Of a DNA stretch of 58,657 bases, positions 23,509 through 40,352 are shown one piece after another. The translations under genes and the position numbers were made by a program. The notes under the pieces were generated by a model that saw only the letters and a program-made list of their open reading frames with translations, made no database searches and was not told where the DNA came from. Each line of letters begins with the position of its first letter. The first letter of the stretch is position 1. Origin of the DNA: a virus; IMG/VR virus record IMGVR_UViG_3300030102_005689, positions 1-58,657 of that record. The stretch is one strand, 5' to 3'.

Positions 23509-25281
23509 ATGACAAAGAAGCTACATGTGTATGAACCGCGCATAGATGCGGATACAAAGAAGATGGATGTTGGGGGTCTTTTAATTCCACCAACAAATAC
23601 TGTCACAGCATTGTTGTACGGATTTGCCAATCATACAACATACCGCGCCAAGGAGTATTACTTTTGGAGAATCTGCGATGAGTTTTGGAACAGAGATGAT
23701 TTACCAGAACATATGATGGTAAAACATCCATGGGCTGAAGAGATGATCAAGACAGTGATCCGCAATAAATATGTCGCCATTGGGGGAGCAGCCTCATCCG
23801 GTAAGAGTCATACGATGGCTGCGTGGGGTATCATTAATTGGCTATCCGCCCCGCGTGACACCCTGGTTTTAATCACTTCAACTACACTGAGAGAAGCGCG
23901 TAAAAGGATATGGGGATCAGTTATATCTTTACTTTCCGTTATCGACGGTGCGCCCTTAAAGATAAGGGATAGTATTGGTAACGTAGCTTATGTGAATGAA
24001 AACGGAACTCTGATTGAGAAGGCCGGACTATCTTTGATTGCTTCGGCTCGCGAGAAGACCCGCGAGGCCGTTGGCAAATTTATCGGGATCAAGCAAAAAT
24101 CTGTAATTTGTATTGGTGACGAACTCGCGGAGTTGTCCCCCGCCATCCTCTCCGCTTCACTCAGTAACTTGTCGAAGAACCCCTCATTCCAGCTTATCGG
24201 GATGAGTAACCCTGCTAGTAGGTGGGATGCCTTTGGCGAGTGGTCTGAGCCTAAGTTGGGATGGGACTCCGTAGATACAAACACAGCGGACTGTTGGGAT
24301 ACCAAGTATAATGGAATCTATGTCCGGTTTGATGGTGAGCGTTCACCGAATGTTTTAGCAGGAGAACAAATATATCCCTTCTTACCTACCCAAGAAAAGT
24401 TAGAAGAAGATAAAGCCCTTTTGGGAGAGGAGTCACGGGGATATATGCGTATGGTTCGCGCTGTTTTCTTTGACTCAGATGAGACCGAAGGTATTTACTC
24501 AGAAGCTGAGATTGTTCGTTCAGGATCCATGAACCAAGTTGAGTGGCAGGATGAGCCAATTCCTATTGCCGGCTTAGACCCCGCGTTTACTTCAGGCGGA
24601 GATCGCAGCATTCTCTACACCGGTTTTGTTGGTTACAACAAAGATGGTCATTTTGTTCACCAGTTTGGGGATGCGATTCATTTGAATGACGATGCCACCA
24701 ACAAAGCGGTCCCCCGCAGTTATCAGATTGTTCGTCAAGTGATCGACGAGTGTAAAAAGCGTAAGATAAAAGCGATGGACTTGGCTGTTGACGCAACCGG
24801 TGCCGGAATGCCTTTATGCGACATCTTAGCCGGTGAATGGAGCGACGAAATATTACGGGTATCTTTTGGAGGAAAGGCATCAGACAAGCGTGTCAGCGCA
24901 AATAGTAAGTTGGTGGGAGAACAACTCTACATGAACAGGGTAAGCGAACTCTGGTTTGTCGGCAAGGAGTTGGTGCGGACTAAACAGATTTATGGGGTTA
25001 ATAAGGACTTAGCTTCTGAAATAACAGGGAGGAAGTATGACATGGTCAAGGGAGCTACTCTGCGAATGAAGATTGAAAGCAAGGCAGATTTTAAATCTAG
25101 GTTGGGGAGATCCCCCGACTTAGCTGACGCAGCTTTCTTGTGCCTCGACTTGGCACGACAAAGACATGGTTTAGTAGCGGTTGAGCCACCTAAAACGAAT
25201 GAAAGCGGGTTTTCAAGACCCCGCAGGTCGATGAAGCAGCTTACTAATATGCTGTCAGGGGATCACCTAACCCCCTCCTAA
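23509..25281 (+). CDS. terL: Terminase large subunit
   Basis: 590 residues. ATPase: Walker A GGAASSGKS at residues 92-100, Walker B ICIGDE with Asp204-Glu205. Nuclease: GLDPAFTSGGD (Asp357), VDATGAG (Asp428), SPDLADA (Asp537 and Asp540), the metal-binding acidic set of the RNase H-like terminase nuclease. It pumps DNA into the procapsid and cuts concatemers. It is transcribed divergently from the small terminase-like gene over only 43 bp, and the ejection-protein genes follow. Confidence 0.95.
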   Translation: MTKKLHVYEPRIDADTKKMDVGGLLIPPTNTVTALLYGFANHTTYRAKEYYFWRICDEFWNRDDLPEHMMVKHPWAEEMIKTVIRNKYVAIGGAASSGKSHTMAAWGIINWLSAPRDTLVLITSTTLREARKRIWGSVISLLSVIDGAPLKIRDSIGNVAYVNENGTLIEKAGLSLIASAREKTREAVGKFIGIKQKSVICIGDELAELSPAILSASLSNLSKNPSFQLIGMSNPASRWDAFGEWSEPKLGWDSVDTNTADCWDTKYNGIYVRFDGERSPNVLAGEQIYPFLPTQEKLEEDKALLGEESRGYMRMVRAVFFDSDETEGIYSEAEIVRSGSMNQVEWQDEPIPIAGLDPAFTSGGDRSILYTGFVGYNKDGHFVHQFGDAIHLNDDATNKAVPRSYQIVRQVIDECKKRKIKAMDLAVDATGAGMPLCDILAGEWSDEILRVSFGGKASDKRVSANSKLVGEQLYMNRVSELWFVGKELVRTKQIYGVNKDLASEITGRKYDMVKGATLRMKIESKADFKSRLGRSPDLADAAFLCLDLARQRHGLVAVEPPKTNESGFSRPRRSMKQLTNMLSGDHLTPS

Positions 25282-28280: not shown

Positions 28281-31200
28281 GTGGCTATACCCAGCACCCT
28301 TGCTCCTGTTCAGGAAACGGAGGATCTCTTTTCTGATCCCAACCAAGACGTTCTTAAATACCCTGAGTGGAAAACAATATATAGTAGAGAGGACACTTCT
28401 ACAGAAGTAGACCTCCCACATTATTTGGATTATTATCGGTTTGAGTTGTTTAAAAACAATTCGCTTACCCGCGAGAAAGAACAGGACATCCAATCTTATT
28501 TTGCTGATTGGTATACAGGGGGAGAGGCTGTAAGCGACGAAGAGTATCAGAACATAGCAGCACAATCGACTGCGTTTGCCCCTAACGAAAAACGCAACGC
28601 CCAGCAGGTTGCGCGTGTATTCGGAGAAGATGTAGCACAGAACTTTTCTAACTTCGATGAGCCTACTCAAACCGATTATTTAAACAGGGCAAGAGAGGCT
28701 CTGTTGGCAAGCGGTGACTTAGCTTTTGCTACAATCATGCGTGACGGGCGCGGGATTGTTAAATCCGGTAATTATGCCACTCAGGGTATCACAGCGGAAA
28801 GACAATTCGCTTCTGGTAATGATGCCCTTGATTCCTTTAATAATGGTGATGTAGATCCCCGCGATATGTGGCAGGTAACCGAAGGGTTAGCTCCCTCAAA
28901 CATCAGTGGTAAAACTATTTTTCAATCTTCTATGGATGAAAAATATTTGGGTGTCATCCAAGATGAACTTTATAAAGAGAGCAAGCAGAAGAATACTCCT
29001 ATACAGGATGCCATCATATCTTCGATAAAGACTGATGAGTTTGACCCTGACTTATGGAAGAGTCCTGTAAAATGGTTTAAAGAATTTTTTGAAGAGGAGC
29101 CTGATAAAATTTCACAAGTCGTTATGGACAAGGTTCCTCCTGAAATGTCTGAAATCCAAGATGTTTTAGTTCAGAGGTTTTCCGACAGTTTAGGCTTAAC
29201 TGATGCACAGTCTTTCGGATTAAACCTTGAAAACAGCAACCGTTACTCTGCTGAACGTATCAACGGTTTTCTAAAAGAGCTTGCCACCAGACATGCTAAT
29301 GAAATGGGTATGTTCAAGCTCCATGATGCGGAGCGTGATTTTAACAATGTCCGTTTGACTGAGATGGGGAATGTGATTGTCCACCCCACAGTCATGAAGA
29401 ACCCAACACGGTTTAAAGAGGTTATTGAAAAAGATAAAAGACTCTCTGACCAACAAAAATTCTTGGCCAAACGAGACCGTGATTTCTTTATTCTTCAACA
29501 GGCTCCGCAGTTTGATAAACTCATGGAAGAGTTTGATGGAGAAGTTGGGGACAAGTGGGTAAAAGCCAAGACGGAGAACCCCGAAGCCTGGTCTAAAAAC
29601 CGTGTCGAGTTTCTGGACAAGTTCCTTTCCGACAAGACTAATTATGACCACAGTAAAAACTACTGGGCCGGTGTCGGCTCCTCTGTTCCTGACGCCTTGT
29701 TTGGTTTAGTTAACAGTGTTGGTGCATTGTTTGGGCTTGAGTTTTCTGCTAACTATTTAGCTGAGTATCAAGCCAAGCAACAGAACAGGAGAGAATTAGC
29801 TGGTCTATTTGGAGAAAACCTTGGTTTTTCTTATGATGCTCTTACAACGGCTCCTGCTGTTGTAGCTGACCTTGCCGCTACTGCTTTAGTTATTCCAAAG
29901 ACTGCTAAGGTGCTTTCGCTTGCTAAGGGTGTTATGTCCCCGCGCAATGGTTTCAAAGCTATGACATCTCGGATGCTTCTACGAGAGGCTGGAGAAAAGG
30001 CTACGCTTACAGCTAATAGAAAAGCTGCCCAAACAGCAATTACAGAATCCACCAAGACAGGAGCCGAAGCGTATAACGCTATTAGTTCATTTAATAAGTT
30101 GGTTGGAAGCAAGTTGAATGTAGGAACAGCAGTTTTCCTTACATCTGCCAACCGCAGTGCTGGTGGAATGTACGCCACAATTTATTCTTCGATGCCCGAA
30201 GATATGTCTCATGAGGAGAAGCACGATAAGGCTTTAGGTCATGCACTACTTGGTGGCTTGATAACTGGTGTAGTTACTTCCGGTTTCACTGCAATTGGTG
30301 CAGGCGGTATTGAGAATGTATTCACCAGAGGACTTTCTTTCAGTGCGGCAAAGCGAGTCTTGGACAAGATTGGCGACCCAGGTTTCCTTACTGATGAGGG
30401 TTTGAAGAGACTTTTAAAGAAGCATATTTCTTCACAGACTAAGAAATTGTTTTTTGAGAAAGGAGCAGGTCTTGTGACCCGTGTTGGAGTGAGCGCACTT
30501 CAAGAGGGTGTAGAGGAAGGAATTGATCAGTGGGCACAGTCTTTTGTGGAGGATTCAGCCCTTCAACGAAATACTCCAATGAGGGATCGTGTCATGCACA
30601 CTGTCCATGCCTTCAAGCTAGGTGCCGTAATGGGTGCTGGTGTTAATGTCATAGCTCCCGCAGGAGGTTCTGTGTGGAAGCGTATGCAGAAAACAATGGG
30701 GCGTGAAAAAGCCCTTGAGGAAGACGAAACAATATTCCTTTTTGAACAAGTTCAAAAGGCCGCAGACGTTTTGGAGCGCGCAGACTCTCCACAGAGTGCG
30801 GCTAGATTGCGTGAGTTAGTTTTTGAAAAGTTCACTAAAGAGCTTGCTTCTAAAGAGTCTCCACTCCCACGCACTGAAGTCGCCACAGAAGAAGAGGAAG
30901 AGTTAGAGATTAAGTTCCCTGAAGAAGAAACCGCTATACCTTTAAGTGACAAACAGCGCGGGGAACATGCCGCTACGGTTGCTGTTGCAAACACATCTCT
31001 TAACGAAGATTCAGATGTTGATATTGATTCCCTTCCTGTTCTTAACCCTGACTCTCTTGAGTTTGCAAAAGCTGTCAACGATCCCAATTATAATATTGAT
31101 CCAGACGGAACAATTAGAGGAGTAGTAGACCCCAAAACGGATGAGTGGGTAGGAGCTAAACCAGCGGAAACCGCAGAAGAAGAAGCAGAGGAAGCCTTGG

Positions 31201-34200
31201 CAGACGTTGCAGCAGAAGCTACAGAGGAAGCCTCGGCAGATGTTGCAGCAGAACCTACAGAGGAAGAAGCAGAGGAAGAAGCAGAGGAAGAAGCAGAGGA
31301 AGAAGCAGAGGAAGTTACTCCGCCACTGGGTAAGGTCAAAAAAGGTGCTTTTCCTAAAGGACTTTCTTCTGCTGACTACACAGACCCAAGTCGTATTAAA
31401 GATGCTGTTTCCCTTTGGCTTAATGTTAACGATGGAGCCATATTCAAGCGTTTTAGAACGCTGGGAATTGAGGTAAAAATTGACCCTGAATTTGGGCACA
31501 CTAACCCTGAAACCGGTGAGCTAACTAAACTTCCTGCGGGGGTTGAAGTTATCACTGAGGGGGAAGACCAAAACAAGATTGTATTTTGGGTTAACCCCGA
31601 CAAGTTAGCCAGTGACTTAACTAGGGAGAAAGATGACACAAGAGCCAGTGCTTTCGATGCACTCATGGCCCATGAGTTGGCGCATATTGCGGAAGCATCC
31701 TACTTAAAAAGTAAATGGAAGAAGAGTAACTCTGCCGTTGATTTCCATCAATACTATTTAAGAGAGCGCACCAAAATTTATGACAGTCTAGAAGACAAGC
31801 ATAGTGATATTCTTAGGGCTTCAGTTGCGACCTATTTAAGAATGGATGAGACCGCTGTTGTCTTACCAGGGGAAGAAGATTCTTCGGGTAAGAAAGCGAC
31901 CATGGAAAAGGAGCAGATTATTTCTGAGGTGGTTCGCTTTGCAATGGATGCCAAAAGGCGCGGTAAACTACAGGAACAAGCCTTCAAGGGTATGACCTTG
32001 TCTTCAAAGCTCTATTTATACATTGAGGGCATCCTTGATTTTATTAATAAGAATCTTCTCAAGAAAAAACTTATAGGAACTAATAATGTTAAGGAGCTTA
32101 GAGAACATGTTAAGAGTGTTGGGGAGGAACTTAGTAAGTATTATACAGCTAGAAATTTAACTAAGAGTCTTAGCCAAAAAATAGATCGGTTAGCCAAAAT
32201 AGAAAAAGAAGAAAAAGCCCTTCAAAAAGAAGCAGAAAAAGCCGAAAAGAAAAAGGGGGAGTGGGTTGCGAATGAAGATAAAACTCTTCATGACTCTCCT
32301 GAGATTGACGGAGTCCGCAGGGATCAGATTAAAAAAGAGGGGGAAGAGTGGCAACTTATTATTGATGGAGCTACACAAGAAAAGACTTACGGCTCCTTGG
32401 GTGCCGCTAAAGGAGCTTACCCAAAGGTTCTTGAAGCTATTGCAAACCCGATACCTGAAATCTCTGACAGCACTATACCGGCAACTGATGCGGATCAAGC
32501 ATACCTTGATGCACACGAATTGCGTAATAGGGAGATTAATAACTTTAGTGCTGCTGCTCAAAGAAGAAGGCAGGCTCAAAGCACAGAGATGGCTACACAA
32601 CTTCTCTTGGCTTCAGGTCAATTGACTGAAAACCAAGTAGGGATCCTGCGTGAGTATCATAACGCCTTGTTAGAATTAAGGCAGATCACAAAGGCGAAAG
32701 CTAATCCCGATGAACAAATCAAAAAGGTTAAGGAGATAATCAGCAAGGGCAGGAGTTGGACTGCATGGAAAAAAGATGCTTTAATTTTTAAAGTAGGTTC
32801 AAAAGGAGGGATAACAAATTTCAAAGAAGACTTTGATGCATATGCAAAAGGCTTCTTGGCGGCGGCAATTAGAGAGAAAAAGATAGAAGGAAAACCTGAG
32901 ATTACTGTTACTGATAGGGATCTCCCTGTTGTGCCCTCGAAAAGATTTACTAAGCCAACAAAGCGTCTTGTGGTTGGTATGGCTCCTTCTGAAAATGCGG
33001 ATGTTCCGGTAGAGGACACTGCTGCCCAGCCCGTTGATGAGGCTACTCAAGAACCTATGCTGGAGGTTCCCGTTATGCCTGTCCATTTGGACATGTCTTT
33101 GTTGGAAGACATGAAGGTTTATTCAGGAGCTTCTATTTCCGAGCAAGAGTCTGTGGTTCAGGATAAAGCACACTTTATCAAAGCACTCTCAGAAGAGCAT
33201 TTTAATATAGAGGTTACTACAGACAGGCAAGGGGATGAGGACTCAAGCTACAGGGATCATGATGCAGTTCGATTTCAGAATATTGATGGTAACCTAACTG
33301 CTGTGGTTAACCCGCTTGGTGTTGCCAAACTTGTTGACGGAAAAGCTGAAGCGGATTCTGATGCTACAATAGCTTTTCATTTTATTACAAAGCTGCACCA
33401 GCATAAAATTTTAGAACAACTTTCACAACAAGAACTAGACTCAGTAGGGCAACTAGGAAGTGAGGAATTGATGCGCGTAGGGCGTGAGCTACTCCCTAGA
33501 CAGGTAAGCTCCAAACTAGATGGCGCGCTGGATAATACGAATACTACCGTTAAATTTATTCTAGGTGATATAGTCACCAAGGTATCTGATGATACACTCA
33601 CTCTTGATGACATCTCTCTTATAGAGAGCAACCCCGAACTTGCTACTTTAACTACAGACGTTTTAACAAAACTGTATGTTGAGACCAAGAAGACTATCTC
33701 AGGGTTCCCTAACCTTGACGCAAATGAGTCCTCCTTAGCTGTTACCAACAAGGGCTTTAATTACTTGGCGGCTAACCTTTCTCAGTTAGCTAGAACCATT
33801 AATGATTTAAACAGCCGGCATGGGATTCCTTATCAGTCTCAAACTCAAAAACTACTCGACCCAAATGATGTAGACATAAGCGGAGACGCAATCATCGATG
33901 CGTTGGAAGAGCAGTCAAAGCCATCATCCCTTATGCTGTTCGCACAGTCACCGGATACGGCTACTGAAGAGCAGGAAGCTCTTATAGATGAGGAGACAAA
34001 GAAGGAGATTGAGAACATCGAAGCACTGCTGGAACTGGGCATATGGGAGTCTGGAGAATACAAAGCCCCAGGGAAAGGACAGCCTGGTTTTGTTCAAAAG
34101 TTGCGCCAGCTTTTTGAAGGAACCGCAGACCCTAATTTAAGGAGGATCAAACAACATAATGAGGGATTCTTCCAGTATATAAATAAGGTAATGGGTGATT

Positions 34201-37200
34201 GGTCTAGGATTTCTGAGCGTCTTATTAACGAGGCTTACGGTTCCTTTGAGCAAGCTAGAGCAGTAGGAGGAGCGCAGGATATAATGGATGCCTCTGGATC
34301 TACTGAAGGTTATACCCTAAAGGATTCGTTTATTAACAAATTGAACAAACAGTATGAGGAAACTAGGAAGGCTGTTGAAAGAGATATAAAAGACGACCCT
34401 AAGTTAAAGGCAGCCTACATCAAACGCGCTCGACAGCTACGCCAAAAGAGAATTGACGACGAGATTGAAAGTCAAAAGAATAAGATTAAGCGTAGAAGAT
34501 TAGCTGCTTTATCTAGAATACGACAGCGGTCACCTGAACTTTACCAGCACTTAATAAACATGCGTGGTTTGGTTGACACAATGTCAAAGAAGATCAGAGA
34601 CGGTTTAGGGCTTAATGAAAAACTAAAGATTAAGTTCACTAAACAGTTGGAGGTGTATCTTACACGTTCCTACAGAATTTTCTCTCAGCCTGGTTGGAAG
34701 GAGATGATCCTTACTAGTGACCACTCTGATGTGGTTCAAGCAAGAGAGGCCGCTAAACTAGAGTATGCCAAGCTGTGGAAGCAAAAGAAGCGCGAAGAAC
34801 TATTCGATAAGTATTCTAAGAACCGTCCAGAAGGATCGGAAGAGCTTAGTTCAGATGATTTGTGGCAACAGGCTACAGATGAAGCTGAAAAGCAATTTAA
34901 TATTAAAGTGAGCGAAAGGGCTGCGCGAGGCGAAGACTTTGCTGACAGCTTAATGCGCGAGCAGTTGGACAAGTATGAACTTGGAGCGACTGATGTTTTA
35001 CACCGCAAGGATAATATACCTGCTCCGATACGGAAGATATTAGGAGAGTATGGAGGAGAAACAGGTGACTTTAATCTGATGCGAACTTTCCTGAATGTTA
35101 GTTCCCTTGCTGCTAAACAGTCATTGGCGTCTAACATTATCAGTGCCGGTAGGACAGGGGAGGGAACTGCTAATGAGGATCGTTCACAGTGGTGGTTCTT
35201 TACTCAGAAGGAGCGGGACGAAATGAATGACAGTAGTTCACAGTTCTACAATCCAGAACTGTATGCCAAGCTGTCAACTTGGGGTTATGTCAATTCCGTT
35301 GATAAAAACATGGCAGGCCCCAGTGAGTTCAACCCCTTCTTGAATTTTATTAAAGATGGAGAAAATCAAGGAACTCTCATAGCTTCGCCTGAAGTTCAGA
35401 ATGAATTACGGGCGATGTTTGTTAAGCAGAGCGAACACGACCCTGTTAGAAAGCTGACTGAGAAACTTGATACAGGTTTCCGTAAAGCTGTTGGGTGGTC
35501 ATTGATGTCCAAGACAATAGGTAGCGGACCCTTCTATTCAAGAAACATAGTATCAAACCTTGCTTTCTTTTCTTTGGCACAGGGCATGGCCCCTACGGGA
35601 GTAACAAAATTGTTTTCAGAGCTTAACCGTCTGTTTATACAGAACAACAAACCAAAAGCCATGGATGCCTATATCCATCGCTTGGTAGGTTACCGTATCC
35701 TAGATAATGATTTTACGGTGGGTATGATGGAAGACATCCTTGCAGGTAAGACAACACCTGAGTCTCTCTTAGCAGAGACTAATCAAGCGATTGATGATGC
35801 CATGGAGAAGCAAGGCATTCCCAAAGTGGACTATGCCACAAGTTTTTCTGCGCTTAGAAGTAAGCTCGAAAAGGTAGGTGACTTAGCTGAACTTACTGTA
35901 GGGGATCCTGTAATCAGCAGACTTAAAAATCTTTCAATTGCGTGTGATTCATTTTACAAAATTGCTTATTTTGAGAAGGAGTTGAAAACTCTGAGGGGTG
36001 CCCGTGAGGAAGATCAAAAGAAAAACAAGGACACCCTCATGGCGAATGCCACTGATAATAAACTGGAGAGGTTGGCTGCCGATAAAGTTTTAATGACGGC
36101 TCAATCTTGGAGCCAAGCAATGAACTTTGGTAAGGCATTCCAGAACTCAGCGTTGGGAGTTACTCTTGCCCCTTACTTGCGATTTAAGCTGGAGGTTGTT
36201 CGTATCGTTGCCAATACATACAAGCTGGGAACTCAGGAAGTTAGAAGCGGAAATTCTGTTCTTGTAAGGCGCGGTATGCGCCGTCTTGCAGGTATGACTA
36301 CTGCATTAACCAGTTTCTCAGTCCTTGCAAAAACACTGGGTCAGTGGTCGGTTAACCTTATTGCTGAACTATTAGGGCACGAAGAAGCTGATGACCTAAC
36401 AGATGAGATGAAGGAGACCTTGCTCGCGGGAGTCCCACCATTCTTAAAAACGCACACGTTTTATTACACCCGCGATAAAGAGGGCAATTTGATTTCTTGG
36501 GATCTTACCTACCTAAATCCCTTTGCCATGTATACCGATGCGTTGCCACAGTTTTGGTCACATGCTACAGCGGGTCGCATGGGGGATGCTTTCGGTGCTG
36601 TATTTAAAACGGCTGTTGCGGTCCCCTTCATGGAGGGTCAGATACTGACAAGTGCTGTGGGGTCTGTTGCTAGGAACAAGGATTCCAGGGATAACCCGAT
36701 TTGGTTGGAGACAGATAACTTCTTAGAAAGAACTATTAAACAAATTGGTTACGTTTACCAACAGGCTTATGAGCCACCAACTTTGGCTCGCCTTGGGGGC
36801 ATACGTCTTGGCTACACCCAAGAAGAAGGATTTGACCTTAGAGTGTTGGATAAATTGTTTGCCTCTATTCAGGCCGGTAGGGAAGGCGATTGGTTTAACT
36901 CACCATTAGGTTTGATGATGGGTGAGGTTATGTTCGTGAAAGGACATAGGGTTGACCCACAAAACACAGCATTCCGTATCATGCAGGGTCTGGCCAAGGA
37001 CAAGGACTCTATTAGGAGTATGATTAACAGGCTTGCCAGTGACCGTTTGATGAGTGAGGAACAGATAGAGTCCCTAACCAACCAGTATATCAATGTGCAG
37101 ATGCGTCTTGCAAAGCGCGCAATGAAACATTGGCAGCCTTTGCTTGATCTTGGTGTTGACCCTGAGTGGCAGCTGAATGCCTTAAACAGGCAGTTTGGGG

Positions 37201-37373
37201 CAGACAATGTTGAGAGTATGGTATTTGATGGTCAACTCAACATCAAAGGATTGAGCAACTACATTCAGGACTTAATAGCCCAAAACCCGAAAGAGGATGT
37301 TCGCGAGAGACTGCTACAGTTTGAACGTCTCTTCTATGAGAAGACCGAAGGTGGTAATTTAAATTTACCTTAA
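28281..37373 (+). CDS. Giant 3,030-residue protein with HELAH metallopeptidase motif
   Basis: GTG start. Residues about 440-800 include hydrophobic helical stretches (VVADLAATALVIP, HALLGGLITGVVTSGF) that could insert in a membrane. Residues about 955-1015 are an acidic hinge (EEEAEEEAEEEAEEEAEE). An HELAH zinc-peptidase motif follows at 1131-1135 in DALMAHELAHIAEAS, then a long charged coiled coil (about 1300), a middle region with DEETKKEIENIEALLELG, and a C-terminal third with further hydrophobic helices. It is the last gene of the terminase and ejection block. The best guess is a giant ejected virion protein whose protease acts during entry or maturation. No polymerase or transglycosylase motif was found. 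Confidence 0.7.
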   Translation: MAIPSTLAPVQETEDLFSDPNQDVLKYPEWKTIYSREDTSTEVDLPHYLDYYRFELFKNNSLTREKEQDIQSYFADWYTGGEAVSDEEYQNIAAQSTAFAPNEKRNAQQVARVFGEDVAQNFSNFDEPTQTDYLNRAREALLASGDLAFATIMRDGRGIVKSGNYATQGITAERQFASGNDALDSFNNGDVDPRDMWQVTEGLAPSNISGKTIFQSSMDEKYLGVIQDELYKESKQKNTPIQDAIISSIKTDEFDPDLWKSPVKWFKEFFEEEPDKISQVVMDKVPPEMSEIQDVLVQRFSDSLGLTDAQSFGLNLENSNRYSAERINGFLKELATRHANEMGMFKLHDAERDFNNVRLTEMGNVIVHPTVMKNPTRFKEVIEKDKRLSDQQKFLAKRDRDFFILQQAPQFDKLMEEFDGEVGDKWVKAKTENPEAWSKNRVEFLDKFLSDKTNYDHSKNYWAGVGSSVPDALFGLVNSVGALFGLEFSANYLAEYQAKQQNRRELAGLFGENLGFSYDALTTAPAVVADLAATALVIPKTAKVLSLAKGVMSPRNGFKAMTSRMLLREAGEKATLTANRKAAQTAITESTKTGAEAYNAISSFNKLVGSKLNVGTAVFLTSANRSAGGMYATIYSSMPEDMSHEEKHDKALGHALLGGLITGVVTSGFTAIGAGGIENVFTRGLSFSAAKRVLDKIGDPGFLTDEGLKRLLKKHISSQTKKLFFEKGAGLVTRVGVSALQEGVEEGIDQWAQSFVEDSALQRNTPMRDRVMHTVHAFKLGAVMGAGVNVIAPAGGSVWKRMQKTMGREKALEEDETIFLFEQVQKAADVLERADSPQSAARLRELVFEKFTKELASKESPLPRTEVATEEEEELEIKFPEEETAIPLSDKQRGEHAATVAVANTSLNEDSDVDIDSLPVLNPDSLEFAKAVNDPNYNIDPDGTIRGVVDPKTDEWVGAKPAETAEEEAEEALADVAAEATEEASADVAAEPTEEEAEEEAEEEAEEEAEEVTPPLGKVKKGAFPKGLSSADYTDPSRIKDAVSLWLNVNDGAIFKRFRTLGIEVKIDPEFGHTNPETGELTKLPAGVEVITEGEDQNKIVFWVNPDKLASDLTREKDDTRASAFDALMAHELAHIAEASYLKSKWKKSNSAVDFHQYYLRERTKIYDSLEDKHSDILRASVATYLRMDETAVVLPGEEDSSGKKATMEKEQIISEVVRFAMDAKRRGKLQEQAFKGMTLSSKLYLYIEGILDFINKNLLKKKLIGTNNVKELREHVKSVGEELSKYYTARNLTKSLSQKIDRLAKIEKEEKALQKEAEKAEKKKGEWVANEDKTLHDSPEIDGVRRDQIKKEGEEWQLIIDGATQEKTYGSLGAAKGAYPKVLEAIANPIPEISDSTIPATDADQAYLDAHELRNREINNFSAAAQRRRQAQSTEMATQLLLASGQLTENQVGILREYHNALLELRQITKAKANPDEQIKKVKEIISKGRSWTAWKKDALIFKVGSKGGITNFKEDFDAYAKGFLAAAIREKKIEGKPEITVTDRDLPVVPSKRFTKPTKRLVVGMAPSENADVPVEDTAAQPVDEATQEPMLEVPVMPVHLDMSLLEDMKVYSGASISEQESVVQDKAHFIKALSEEHFNIEVTTDRQGDEDSSYRDHDAVRFQNIDGNLTAVVNPLGVAKLVDGKAEADSDATIAFHFITKLHQHKILEQLSQQELDSVGQLGSEELMRVGRELLPRQVSSKLDGALDNTNTTVKFILGDIVTKVSDDTLTLDDISLIESNPELATLTTDVLTKLYVETKKTISGFPNLDANESSLAVTNKGFNYLAANLSQLARTINDLNSRHGIPYQSQTQKLLDPNDVDISGDAIIDALEEQSKPSSLMLFAQSPDTATEEQEALIDEETKKEIENIEALLELGIWESGEYKAPGKGQPGFVQKLRQLFEGTADPNLRRIKQHNEGFFQYINKVMGDWSRISERLINEAYGSFEQARAVGGAQDIMDASGSTEGYTLKDSFINKLNKQYEETRKAVERDIKDDPKLKAAYIKRARQLRQKRIDDEIESQKNKIKRRRLAALSRIRQRSPELYQHLINMRGLVDTMSKKIRDGLGLNEKLKIKFTKQLEVYLTRSYRIFSQPGWKEMILTSDHSDVVQAREAAKLEYAKLWKQKKREELFDKYSKNRPEGSEELSSDDLWQQATDEAEKQFNIKVSERAARGEDFADSLMREQLDKYELGATDVLHRKDNIPAPIRKILGEYGGETGDFNLMRTFLNVSSLAAKQSLASNIISAGRTGEGTANEDRSQWWFFTQKERDEMNDSSSQFYNPELYAKLSTWGYVNSVDKNMAGPSEFNPFLNFIKDGENQGTLIASPEVQNELRAMFVKQSEHDPVRKLTEKLDTGFRKAVGWSLMSKTIGSGPFYSRNIVSNLAFFSLAQGMAPTGVTKLFSELNRLFIQNNKPKAMDAYIHRLVGYRILDNDFTVGMMEDILAGKTTPESLLAETNQAIDDAMEKQGIPKVDYATSFSALRSKLEKVGDLAELTVGDPVISRLKNLSIACDSFYKIAYFEKELKTLRGAREEDQKKNKDTLMANATDNKLERLAADKVLMTAQSWSQAMNFGKAFQNSALGVTLAPYLRFKLEVVRIVANTYKLGTQEVRSGNSVLVRRGMRRLAGMTTALTSFSVLAKTLGQWSVNLIAELLGHEEADDLTDEMKETLLAGVPPFLKTHTFYYTRDKEGNLISWDLTYLNPFAMYTDALPQFWSHATAGRMGDAFGAVFKTAVAVPFMEGQILTSAVGSVARNKDSRDNPIWLETDNFLERTIKQIGYVYQQAYEPPTLARLGGIRLGYTQEEGFDLRVLDKLFASIQAGREGDWFNSPLGLMMGEVMFVKGHRVDPQNTAFRIMQGLAKDKDSIRSMINRLASDRLMSEEQIESLTNQYINVQMRLAKRAMKHWQPLLDLGVDPEWQLNALNRQFGADNVESMVFDGQLNIKGLSNYIQDLIAQNPKEDVRERLLQFERLFYEKTEGGNLNLP
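31257..31316 (+). repeat. GAAGAAGCAGAG repeats encoding the acidic hinge
   Basis: The 12-mer gaagaagcagag, with slight variation, repeats about four to five times and encodes EEAE units in the giant protein just before its peptidase region. Copy number could vary by slippage. Confidence 0.85.
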
Positions 37374-37811: not shown

Positions 37812-37914
37812 TGCTTTCTTTTCTGTTTAGGTAAAGGCACCATAGTATCAAAGCGATACCATGTGCCGGTAGGATTGAGATTTGCAAGATCCCTTGTATT
37901 TGTTCTGGTGTCAT
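37780..37914 (-). CDS. 44-residue single-span membrane protein
   Basis: Starts MTPEQIQGILQISILPAH with one hydrophobic span (about residues 10-30) and a charged tail ending TNKTDNP. Its ATG overlaps the previous stop (ATGA). The first 19 nt of this start region are identical to those of the gene just upstream, so both proteins begin MTPEQI. Confidence 0.55.
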   Translation of the reverse strand: MTPEQIQGILQISILPAHGIALILWCLYLNRKESNDETNKTDNP

Positions 37915-38387
37915 TACTTTATGTGCTTGTCTAGTATTAGTAGCTTGTTCACTTTTGTGATTCCACAAGGTTTCCAACCTGCTTTTTTAAAGCAGTAACC
38001 AGGATTGTCTGACTTTACTTTTAAGGGAGCCACATAGGTGTATAATCTTGTAGCTCCCCACCGATCAAGGGCAACTTGCTCGGCCTCAAGGATTAGATCA
38101 GAACTTCTTGTGGGTGTTTCATTTCTGAAGATTGAACAGTTTATCCCCTGCTGGTTATCTCCTGAATTAAACTTCCTCCATACAAAAAGTCCTCCTTCCA
38201 TGACAAGAACAGTCTTAAACCCAGGGCCACAGAATAGCTTGGGTTTTCTACCATCCTTGTATGGTCTATATGAATAATGCCTATGGAACAATGAACGGGC
38301 ATAGTCATTGCCATCCTTTGTAAAGAACCAATGTTCAGTTGCTTTCTCCATCCCCTCTGTTGGATTCAATATTTGTTCTGGTGTCAT
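37914..38387 (-). CDS. GNAT-like acetyltransferase candidate
   Basis: 157 residues from MTPEQILNPTEG. The body CSIFRNETPTRSSDLILEA then LYTYVAPLKVKSDNPGYCF and KAGWKPCG follows the pattern of a widespread phage protein with a GNAT-like layout, where a C-terminal NPGYCF..AGW resembles the acetyl-CoA-binding end. The target is unknown. The start at 38387 overlaps the previous stop (ATGA); a longer start at 38408 is less likely. Confidence 0.55.
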   Translation of the reverse strand: MTPEQILNPTEGMEKATEHWFFTKDGNDYARSLFHRHYSYRPYKDGRKPKLFCGPGFKTVLVMEGGLFVWRKFNSGDNQQGINCSIFRNETPTRSSDLILEAEQVALDRWGATRLYTYVAPLKVKSDNPGYCFKKAGWKPCGITKVNKLLILDKHIK

Positions 38388-38572
38388 TTTCCTCTTGGGT
38401 TGTCCCATGGCTTATAGCGCGTTAACTGCCAGCCATGGAAGTGTTTAGCCATATACTCAGCTTCCTCTCTACTTGAGTAAGTGTGTTGGAACTCAAGTTT
38501 CTTTAGGTGCTGTATCTTCCAATTATCACCATACCTGTATAAGTAGGCACGGGGTCTCTTTACACGAATCAT
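38384..38572 (-). CDS. Small basic protein after the methyltransferase gene
   Basis: 62 residues from MIRVKRPRAYLYRYGDNWKI. Rich in aromatic and basic residues; the middle EFQHTYSSREEAEYMAKHF looks like a short beta-alpha unit. It starts 10 nt after the methyltransferase stop and overlaps the next gene. A third-frame extension upstream into the methyltransferase gene is probably spurious. Confidence 0.6.
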   Translation of the reverse strand: MIRVKRPRAYLYRYGDNWKIQHLKKLEFQHTYSSREEAEYMAKHFHGWQLTRYKPWDNPRGK

Positions 38573-38582
38573 GGCACAGGAA

Positions 38583-40142
38583 TCAGAGCAATCTGGATGT
38601 GAGGATTCTGAAGGCACGTTCTGCGGTAGCAGGGACAACACCGTTGCCCAACATCCTCAGTCGATCCACTCTGTTGGCAGTTGTGTCCACTGCGGGGGGA
38701 CACCCATTAGGTGTTCCACCCAATTCGGGTTGAGCTTCGCGTTCGTAACTGACTGTTGGTCGTTGAGGTTCTTTGTCCTCTTCTCGTCTTCCCACCTCTT
38801 CGGGTCGCCACTTCTGTGGTCTCTCGTCTGTGGTGTTGCCCAGTTCGCTTCGTGTGTCTCCACCGCATCCCGCAGCTTCGCCCCGAACCACTGGTCGCTC
38901 TTCTCCCTCCGGCTCCTGAACCCCTTGTCTGTCTCCTGAGTCTTGATCCTCCCGCCCTCGACATCTGACACTCTCGCTGTCGGCCATTGCTTGCTCTCCT
39001 CCTTGTATATCTCCACTGCCTTTGGGTCTACTTGTTCCCGCAGATTCGCCGGCTTCTTCCGCCCCTTTCGGGCTGTCTGTGCTTGTCGTCTCAGTGCTTC
39101 CTCTGACCTTTGGGGCAGACTGTCCATTGTGTTTGGGGTTGCCCACGACTCCTTGCGGACTTGGGATTGTAGCCCCTTCTGTTGGCTGTTGGGTCCCTGT
39201 GGCTTTTCTGCTTGGCTGGCTGTTGGAGTTACCCACGACTCTTGGTTCTTCCCACTCGAACTGGACTTCGCCTGGTCTTGCTGGCCAAGGTAAGCCAAAC
39301 GCTGTGGTAATGTCTGCCTGCTCACAGTTGTCCTCGACGGAGGCAGGGTGCCCCCGTCCTTCCAATCCCGTGTCGTTGGTGTTGGCCATGTCCCCGCTAC
39401 TACATCCGGTAGCAGTCGTCGTTCCTTCTTGGCTTGGCTCTCCGCTGAGTAAGCTCCCTTCCAATCCCTTGAGGTCGGGGTTGGCCACTTCATAACCTGT
39501 TCCTCCAGATACAGGGGCACACTCGTCTTGCCCTGCTTCTTCCTGAAGGCCAAGCATTTCTTCAACGTAGCTTCTGAGCGCGGACGACTCATCGCTGTTG
39601 GAGTGCCCCATAATAAAGACTCGCTTTCGTTGATGGGGCGCGCCGACTTCGCTCGCGCTAAATAATCCTGCCGTTGCGCTGTAACCCACTTCTTCCAAGC
39701 TTCGGAGGACATATTGGAGAACACTTTCTCCGTCTCCGGTTTTGCTGGAGATGATGCCTTCGACGTTTTCCAAGAAAACAAATCTTGGCCTACACTCTTT
39801 GATCCCTTCAAGGATGAATGGGAAGAGGTGTCTTGGGTCTTCTGTTGACTTGTGCGCTCCAGCGTTGCTGAAGGGTTGGCATGGGAAGCCTCCAGTGAGG
39901 ATATCCACTTGTCCACGAAACTTTCGGAAAGGGAATTCTTTAAGGTTCGTGAACACAGGGCACGGATCCAAGAGGCCCGCTTCCATCTTCGCAACCAAGT
40001 TTGCGGCTGCGAAGGCTTCGATCTCCACATGAGCGATTTCTCGCACATTTGGGAGAACTCTTCTGAGTCCAATTCCGATCCCTTCGTATCCACTACAAAG
40101 GGAGAGGTGTCTGATATGTTTTTCGGTATTATCCACATACAT
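38583..40142 (-). CDS. DNA cytosine-5 methyltransferase
   Basis: 519 residues with the ordered C5-MTase motifs: I = LSLCSGYEGIGIG (13-25), IV = GGFPCQPFS with nucleophile Cys88, VI = FLENVEG (123-129), VIII = GAPHQRKRVFI (168-177), and a C-terminal motif X-like RMLGNGVVPATAE (about 498-510). Between VIII and X lies an unusually long region (about 180-485) of degenerate repeats starting VANPD, MANTND, VVGNSN or LGNTTD. A long second frame covers almost the whole gene. It probably protects phage DNA from host restriction or marks it; the target sequence is unknown. Confidence 0.93.
   Translation of the reverse strand: MYVDNTEKHIRHLSLCSGYEGIGIGLRRVLPNVREIAHVEIEAFAAANLVAKMEAGLLDPCPVFTNLKEFPFRKFRGQVDILTGGFPCQPFSNAGAHKSTEDPRHLFPFILEGIKECRPRFVFLENVEGIISSKTGDGESVLQYVLRSLEEVGYSATAGLFSASEVGAPHQRKRVFIMGHSNSDESSALRSYVEEMLGLQEEAGQDECAPVSGGTGYEVANPDLKGLEGSLLSGEPSQEGTTTATGCSSGDMANTNDTGLEGRGHPASVEDNCEQADITTAFGLPWPARPGEVQFEWEEPRVVGNSNSQPSRKATGTQQPTEGATIPSPQGVVGNPKHNGQSAPKVRGSTETTSTDSPKGAEEAGESAGTSRPKGSGDIQGGEQAMADSESVRCRGREDQDSGDRQGVQEPEGEERPVVRGEAAGCGGDTRSELGNTTDERPQKWRPEEVGRREEDKEPQRPTVSYEREAQPELGGTPNGCPPAVDTTANRVDRLRMLGNGVVPATAERAFRILTSRLL
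38657..40138 (-). CDS. Overprinted WPTPT-repeat protein in a second frame
   Basis: 493 codons open without a stop in the frame next to the methyltransferase. This ATG lies 4 nt after the methyltransferase ATG (ATGTATG); an upstream ATG at 40201 would add 21 residues. The protein carries about eight repeats led by Trp: WPTPTSRDWKG, WPTPTTRDWKD, WVTPTASQ, WATPNTMD, WPTARVSD, WATPQTRD and others. It closes with LNPNWVEHLMGVPPQW. Each repeat is the same DNA that encodes VANPD-type repeats in the other frame. I recall WPTPT/LNPxWVEWLMG proteins at other phage methyltransferase loci, which supports real coding. The function is unknown. Confidence 0.7.
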   Translation of the reverse strand: MWIIPKNISDTSPFVVDTKGSELDSEEFSQMCEKSLMWRSKPSQPQTWLRRWKRASWIRALCSRTLKNSLSESFVDKWISSLEASHANPSATLERTSQQKTQDTSSHSSLKGSKSVGQDLFSWKTSKASSPAKPETEKVFSNMSSEAWKKWVTAQRQDYLARAKSARPINESESLLWGTPTAMSRPRSEATLKKCLAFRKKQGKTSVPLYLEEQVMKWPTPTSRDWKGAYSAESQAKKERRLLPDVVAGTWPTPTTRDWKDGGTLPPSRTTVSRQTLPQRLAYLGQQDQAKSSSSGKNQESWVTPTASQAEKPQGPNSQQKGLQSQVRKESWATPNTMDSLPQRSEEALRRQAQTARKGRKKPANLREQVDPKAVEIYKEESKQWPTARVSDVEGGRIKTQETDKGFRSRREKSDQWFGAKLRDAVETHEANWATPQTRDHRSGDPKRWEDEKRTKNLNDQQSVTNAKLNPNWVEHLMGVPPQWTQLPTEWID

Positions 40143-40166: not shown

Positions 40167-40352
40167 CTATTTTGGTTTCCCCGTATCTTTGTCTTGGACA
40201 CGGATGATTATTTTCTTTTCTGTATTCTCTTCTCCAAGGTTCTCTGTGCCCCGCACAGGGCGCAGATCATGATGTTCAGTATTAACCAAACGAGGCTTAT
40301 TAGGATCCACAGTAAGATAGATTCTGTAGTCTGGCAGAGGTTCACGTTTCAT
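40167..40352 (-). CDS. Small hypothetical protein before the methyltransferase
   Basis: 61 residues, charged, no membrane span. It overlaps the DnaA-like gene by 11 nt at its start. The longest version of the overprinted frame would overlap its last 35 nt. No family is recognised. Confidence 0.55.
   Translation of the reverse strand: MKREPLPDYRIYLTVDPNKPRLVNTEHHDLRPVRGTENLGEENTEKKIIIRVQDKDTGKPK

Follow-up and report, generated by a model that had tools for sequence, protein, structure and literature searches.

A phage C5-cytosine DNA methyltransferase probably split between two completely overlapping genes

What is the second of two long proteins encoded over the same phage methyltransferase locus, and why has it been kept? 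This question is raised by the viral sequence IMGVR_UViG_3300030102_005689 of IMG/VR (positions 1 to 58,657, the whole stretch of 58,657 nucleotides analysed here and hereafter called the window), where an ORF survey finds two frames of the minus strand, alpha and beta, open simultaneously. The initial annotation had proposed that the methyltransferase is overprinted by a second protein, about 500 residues long. This proposal holds, and neither composition nor the repeats account for beta. With a probability of roughly 0.86, the locus encodes a single C5-cytosine DNA methyltransferase, divided between two genes that overlap completely. On the sequence comparisons described below, beta is most likely the DNA-recognition part that alpha lacks, in an arrangement that recurs in many phage families.

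Two open frames and their motifs

The features of the locus are as follows.

38583..40142, minus strand: alpha, C5-cytosine DNA methyltransferase of 519 aa with an ATG start (PF00145 and phrog_363 matches; absence of motif IX from sequence and alignment)
38657..40138, minus strand: beta, 493 aa, in frame +1 of alpha and wholly overlapping it (open frame; phrog_1008 match; purifying selection in relatives)
40134..40142, minus strand: start cluster ATGTATGTG (sequence)
39582..40112, minus strand: alpha motifs I-VIII, the catalytic core, region R1 (Pfam match to residues 11-187)
39611..40138, minus strand: N-terminal part of beta, residues 1-176, predicted helical (alignment; AlphaFold2)
38735..39610, minus strand: WxTP array of beta, residues 177-468, seven modules (module listing; cassettes gained, lost and swapped among relatives)
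38684..38734, minus strand: motif IX (LNPNWVEHLMGVPPQWT), in beta only (IX-X alignment to a solved DRM methyltransferase)
38604..38672, minus strand: motif X (RVDRLRMLGNGVVPATAERAF), in alpha only (alignment; C-terminal matches to phrog_1008 and phrog_363)

The ATG of beta lies 4 nt downstream of that of alpha, as had been noted at the outset, and the 493 residues are counted from it; the open frame itself extends further upstream, as far as a GTG at 40201. Within the start cluster, the alpha ATG occupies 40142-40140, the beta ATG 40138-40136 and an alternative alpha GTG 40136-40134, the last sharing 1 nt with the beta ATG, which is the layout of most relatives. The string ATGTGGAT, in which the beta ATG and the alpha GTG share 1 nt, is found in 87 of 110 relatives and is preceded by AGGAGG in some of them. 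The window has this overlapping GTG plus the additional alpha ATG, and the ribosome-binding site of its own pair is weak.

Over the 493 codons of beta there are no stops in the beta frame and 16 in the third frame. Synonymous recoding of alpha at phage codon usage introduced a mean of 14.2 beta stops and never fewer than 4 (3000 trials), and shuffling of alpha's own codons left a mean of 6.1, with a probability of 0.0007 for no stop at all. The caution that composition helps to keep stops rare was justified (alpha is 54% GC, the window 46%), but composition alone is insufficient. Furthermore, none of the window's other large genes has a +1 frame open for more than 140 codons.

Alpha is the catalytic chain. 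It is matched by PF00145 (E 9e-37, confined to residues 11-187) and by phrog_363 (E 4e-52), it has the PCQ and ENV motifs within I-VIII that, together with the PF00145 match, mark C5 membership, and its profile is matched by HhaI-type chains (E 1e-19). All of the C5 motifs had initially been assigned to this one frame; sequence and alignment correct this, with I-VIII and X present and IX absent, the missing motif being LNPNWVEHLMG of beta. Between VIII and X, alpha of the window and its relatives has a second conserved element, WPARPGxxQxEWEEPRV. Compared with most relatives, the window has it further upstream, and it is retained where motif X forms a separate ORF.

Beta had been thought to close on LNPNWVEHLMG, which is not quite the case: VPPQWTQLPTEWID follows, and the C-terminus reads as motif IX and then nine more residues. 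In its N-terminal part, SLMWRSKPS..TW..R.KR and S.EAWKKWV..QR..Y..R.K are conserved in the alignment, and AlphaFold2 predicts a helix at residues 145-165 whose core exceeds a pLDDT of 90, the remainder being low. Searched against phage families, the second-frame protein of the window matches phrog_1008 ('DNA methyltransferase', E 1.5e-18), as do 59 of 59 aligned betas, so that beta-like proteins have been clustered previously. Beta was assigned to no family by Pfam or NCBIfam, and its profile found no matches among PDB sequences. AlphaFold2 models of beta alone reach a mean pLDDT of 59 for a minimal beta and 54 for that of the window; with models this poor, no fold ties the WxTP array to a known target-recognition domain. 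Such low values might be expected of a chain whose folding depends on alpha, and they prove nothing.

When the two ends are joined by hand, beta's IX and alpha's X are colinear with the IX-X segment of a plant DRM methyltransferase structure (4onj, E 0.009), and further C5-methyltransferases match this joined profile at weaker E-values. Against the same DRM structure, a profile built from five chains in which IX and X are naturally contiguous reached an E of only 0.87, and the apparent structural match of IX-X to solved C5-methyltransferases is therefore graded as weak and modest. The succession of IX and X that belongs to a C5 enzyme is found in the window only across both chains, and is contiguous in the relatives L262 and L284.

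Two other features of the neighbourhood may be recorded. The gene directly downstream of the pair (37914-38408, minus strand) matches phrog_24928, a family of unknown function. A 3030-aa open frame (28281-37373, plus strand) lies a little downstream of the terminase large subunit (23509-25281), and searches of Pfam and PHROGs returned no matches to it.

Motif partition and selection among relatives

Relatives were found by beta-driven scans, which gave 29 and 80 loci, and alpha-only scans were added to guard against circularity. Classification counts use a relaxed form of the motif IX pattern, as the strict form misses WVETLMG-type motifs. The window family contributes 105 nonredundant classified loci: in 102 of them IX is in frame +1 with X in frame 0, both motifs are in frame +1 in two, and one locus is shifted; IX lies in alpha in none of the 105. 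Across the VIII-IX interval of the 102 loci, which amounts to 17,103 codons, stops number 64 in alpha, 959 in the third frame and zero in beta. The alpha-only scans place IX in +1 and X in 0 in 60/62 loci of the window family, 3/3 of the Synechococcus type and 43/43 of the Bacteroides type, and beta is without stops from VIII to IX in all classified loci. Frequent stops in the second frame of relatives had been named as the result that would speak against a second protein, and no window-family relative found through alpha has beta closed between VIII and IX. In the Bacteroides type beta begins later, and 25 of the 43 loci have beta stops in R1 (motifs I-VIII). The partition seen in these loci, with I-VIII and X in a large chain and IX in a second one, is that of M.EcoHK31I.

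Alpha of L009, L253, L255 and L257 is closed beyond motif VIII, with beta remaining open through to IX. The alpha frame then contains 14, 16 and 34 stops in the first three loci and many in the fourth, and the motif X segment returns in this frame as a conserved ORF, with AAAGGAG shortly 5' of its ATG in L253 and L257.

These four loci (L009 3987-5316, L253 2452-3742, L255 2476-4141 and L257 1869-3324) have the appearance of three-piece methyltransferases, composed of alpha (I-VIII), beta (repeats and IX) and a small motif X ORF nested in beta, with a good ribosome-binding site in two of them.

Both IX and X lie in beta in L055, L262 and L284, and actinophage TiroTheta9 has an AquI-like pair, gp78/gp77, of which gp77 carries PTP repeats, IX and X. 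A I-VIII chain with an overlapping PTP-repeat/IX/X chain is seen at L286 1201-2071 (Gordonia phage GordDuk1) and L032 1977-3072 (TiroTheta9); the second chain of GordDuk1 is annotated merely as a C-terminal fragment. With regard to other annotations, alpha alone is annotated in C75C1, Yong-M2-251, 66FD, epsilon15, BcepC6B and several E. coli genomes, that of phiKX1 covers just part of beta, and both overlapping genes are annotated in Xanthomonas phage PhiXhv-5. In E. coli ECCTRSRTH03 (L204 1986-3155), the prophage alpha gene is given by RefSeq as two pseudogene fragments.

Selection was estimated by an OLGenie-like count over independent pairs, in which changes were sorted by their effect in each frame, with genes flanking the locus in the same phage pairs as the control. 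The control genes gave a pseudo-beta dNN/dNS of 0.68 (0.59-0.79) and a dSN/dSS of 0.94 (0.67-1.33). For the window family, the ratios were 0.20 for alpha and 0.47 for beta in R1 (motifs I-VIII; dSN/dSS 0.12), 0.42 and 0.19 in R2 (VIII to IX; dSN/dSS 0.18) and 0.22 and 0.14 from IX onward. In R2 of the enterobacterial family, which comprises Salmonella phages 66FD and epsilon15 and prophages and is independent of the window family, alpha gave 0.74 (0.59-0.94) and beta 0.07 (0.05-0.10); here the annotated frame is near neutral by dN/dS and the unannotated frame is not. The Bacteroides type gave 0.55 and 0.12 in R2.

Set against the control genes, these frame-wise ratios indicate purifying selection on alpha and beta alike, beyond what hitch-hiking would produce. 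An overlap with unreduced synonymous change had likewise been named as counting against a second protein; changes that are silent in alpha but alter beta are in fact suppressed. At the boundary between the catalytic core and the variable region, beta takes over from alpha as the more constrained frame, and the three families are concordant in this, with some constraint remaining on alpha from VIII to X in the window family. We infer, as a parsimonious history, that a canonical gene in one frame had its VIII-X segment shifted to +1, after which the alpha interval and the N-terminal part of beta would have been overprinted.

Repeat cassettes, the proposed enzyme and its alternatives

Between the conserved helix and IX, beta carries an array of up to eight segments with a median of 47 aa, each starting with WxTP or similar. 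About eight Trp-led repeats had been counted in the window, of which seven stand as WxTP-type modules and the eighth is a W-led helix. Fourteen module clusters recur, their order and number vary among relatives, and module content differs in 142 of 170 close pairs (<12% divergence in motifs I-VIII). For example, clean indels of 84 nt and 99 nt separate L022 from L023 and L024 from L027, genes otherwise ~98% identical, and one module is swapped between L005 and L008. Modules exchangeable between VIII and IX are what characterizes enzymes of the multispecific type. This cassette exchange is, by analogy, the behaviour of target-recognition modules in multispecific phage methyltransferases; the specificity of the cassettes is putative. 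A bolder version, which we put forward tentatively and at slightly less than even odds, is that beta consists of shufflable tandem recognition cassettes, whose swaps reprogram the methylated sequences with two frames kept open, and that some phages have a three-piece enzyme (I-VIII, recognition and IX, and X).

In the split enzyme proposed here, alpha would give AdoMet binding, the catalytic loop (I-VIII) and the closing helix (X), and beta would give, in trans, the variable target-recognition region (the WxTP cassette array) and motif IX. Both chains would be translated from one mRNA, where the overlap or close spacing (a few nt) of the start codons favours similar amounts of the two. Alpha and beta would then assemble to an active enzyme, the cassettes would recognise the target and the phage DNA would become methylated, probably as a protection against host restriction.

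A partner, an inhibitor of the enzyme and an anti-restriction factor had all been suggested as the role of beta. The first is favoured and the other two are unsupported, as beta has the enzyme's IX and variable region, and in a few relatives IX and X together. More broadly, it is improbable that beta is a separate effector, be it inhibitor, anti-restriction factor or regulator, lying by chance over the enzyme gene. In favour of such a protein, the conserved helical N-terminal part resembles no known family, but alpha is without IX, the sole IX-like sequence is in beta and correctly placed there, and some variants carry IX and X on one chain. Moreover, the strongest constraint on beta falls on the region that replaces the enzyme's variable region, and defence-system models gave no match to beta. 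A hidden HNH endonuclease was also considered and judged less likely, beta having no HNH match.

Marginally less probable still is programmed frameshifting, in which the ribosome, having started in alpha, would move to +1 after VIII, translate the recognition region and IX there, and return to the first frame for X, giving a single polypeptide. The motif order on the DNA is indeed canonical (I-VIII, variable region, IX, X) with the frames alternating. However, a fused chain would need neither a conserved beta start codon nor a beta frame that is open and under purifying selection over I-VIII as well; alpha is open all the way to X in nearly all loci, and in L253 and L257 motif X is equipped with a start codon and ribosome-binding site of its own. 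Finally, a second frame that is open by chance and untranslated is by far the least probable account and, as a general one, already refuted: shuffled codons leave only about six stops on average and repeats conserve both frames jointly, but the absence of beta stops across the relatives, selection ratios far off those of control genes and loci with beta open and alpha closed all contradict it.

Significance and comparison with known systems

Returning to the split enzyme, many phage and prophage annotations of a 'complete' cytosine methyltransferase are without motif IX, and such genes would seem inactive or odd if cloned alone. The missing subunit would lie in the same DNA, usually unannotated and better conserved than alpha between VIII and IX. 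The locus is also a very long same-strand overlap whose products probably cooperate and in which the ancestral and overprinted frames can be distinguished in regions. In addition, it offers a testable account of how phage methylation specificity diversifies, with cultured examples in epsilon15, BcepC6B and C75C1. Earlier accounts of phage-wide overlapped methyltransferases were not found in the open literature, which does not prove their absence, and the name of phrog_1008 is silent on its members being the second chain of an overlapped enzyme.

Several known systems share parts of this arrangement. In the ShiLan insertion of actinophage methylases, an out-of-frame homing HNH endonuclease lies within the insertion (PMC11855218); there, as here, a phage methylase gene conceals a second protein in another frame, but beta is proposed as part of the enzyme. 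The multispecific C5-methyltransferases of Bacillus phages are described as having several target-recognizing domains that can be exchanged (Trautner et al. 1996, as cited in PMC12707154), which the tandem VIII-IX modules, varying among close relatives, would resemble. Those enzymes are single chains with established specificities, whereas the modules here lie in a second gene and their exchange has to keep two frames open.

M.AquI consists of alpha and beta chains split within the variable region (PMC3404938), and its X accompanies IX in the second chain. The same is seen in L055, L262 and L284 and in actinophage pairs such as gp78/gp77 of TiroTheta9; the window differs, as its X is in alpha and the AquI-type division is not found there.

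The closest comparison is with M.EcoHK31I, in which the smaller chain is reportedly read in a different frame within the larger gene. The window pair shares its division of motifs, with I-VIII and X in alpha and IX in beta. In this two-polypeptide C5-methyltransferase (YGGCCR), the larger subunit carries I-VIII and X together with the predicted target-recognition domain, and the smaller polypeptide carries IX (PMC3404938). Unlike there, the VIII-IX interval does not mark the large chain as the site of recognition (0.42-0.74 in alpha vs 0.07-0.19 in beta); with alpha weakly constrained or closed in this interval and beta strongly constrained, the recognition region must lie in beta. Further differences are that alpha is closed after VIII in L009, L253, L255 and L257, that variants exist with motif X as a third gene, and that the window beta spans the whole of alpha at a similar length, with overlapping starts and variable, exchangeable cassettes. 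The pair appears from its sequence to operate like M.EcoHK31I, but with the recognition region in the second chain.
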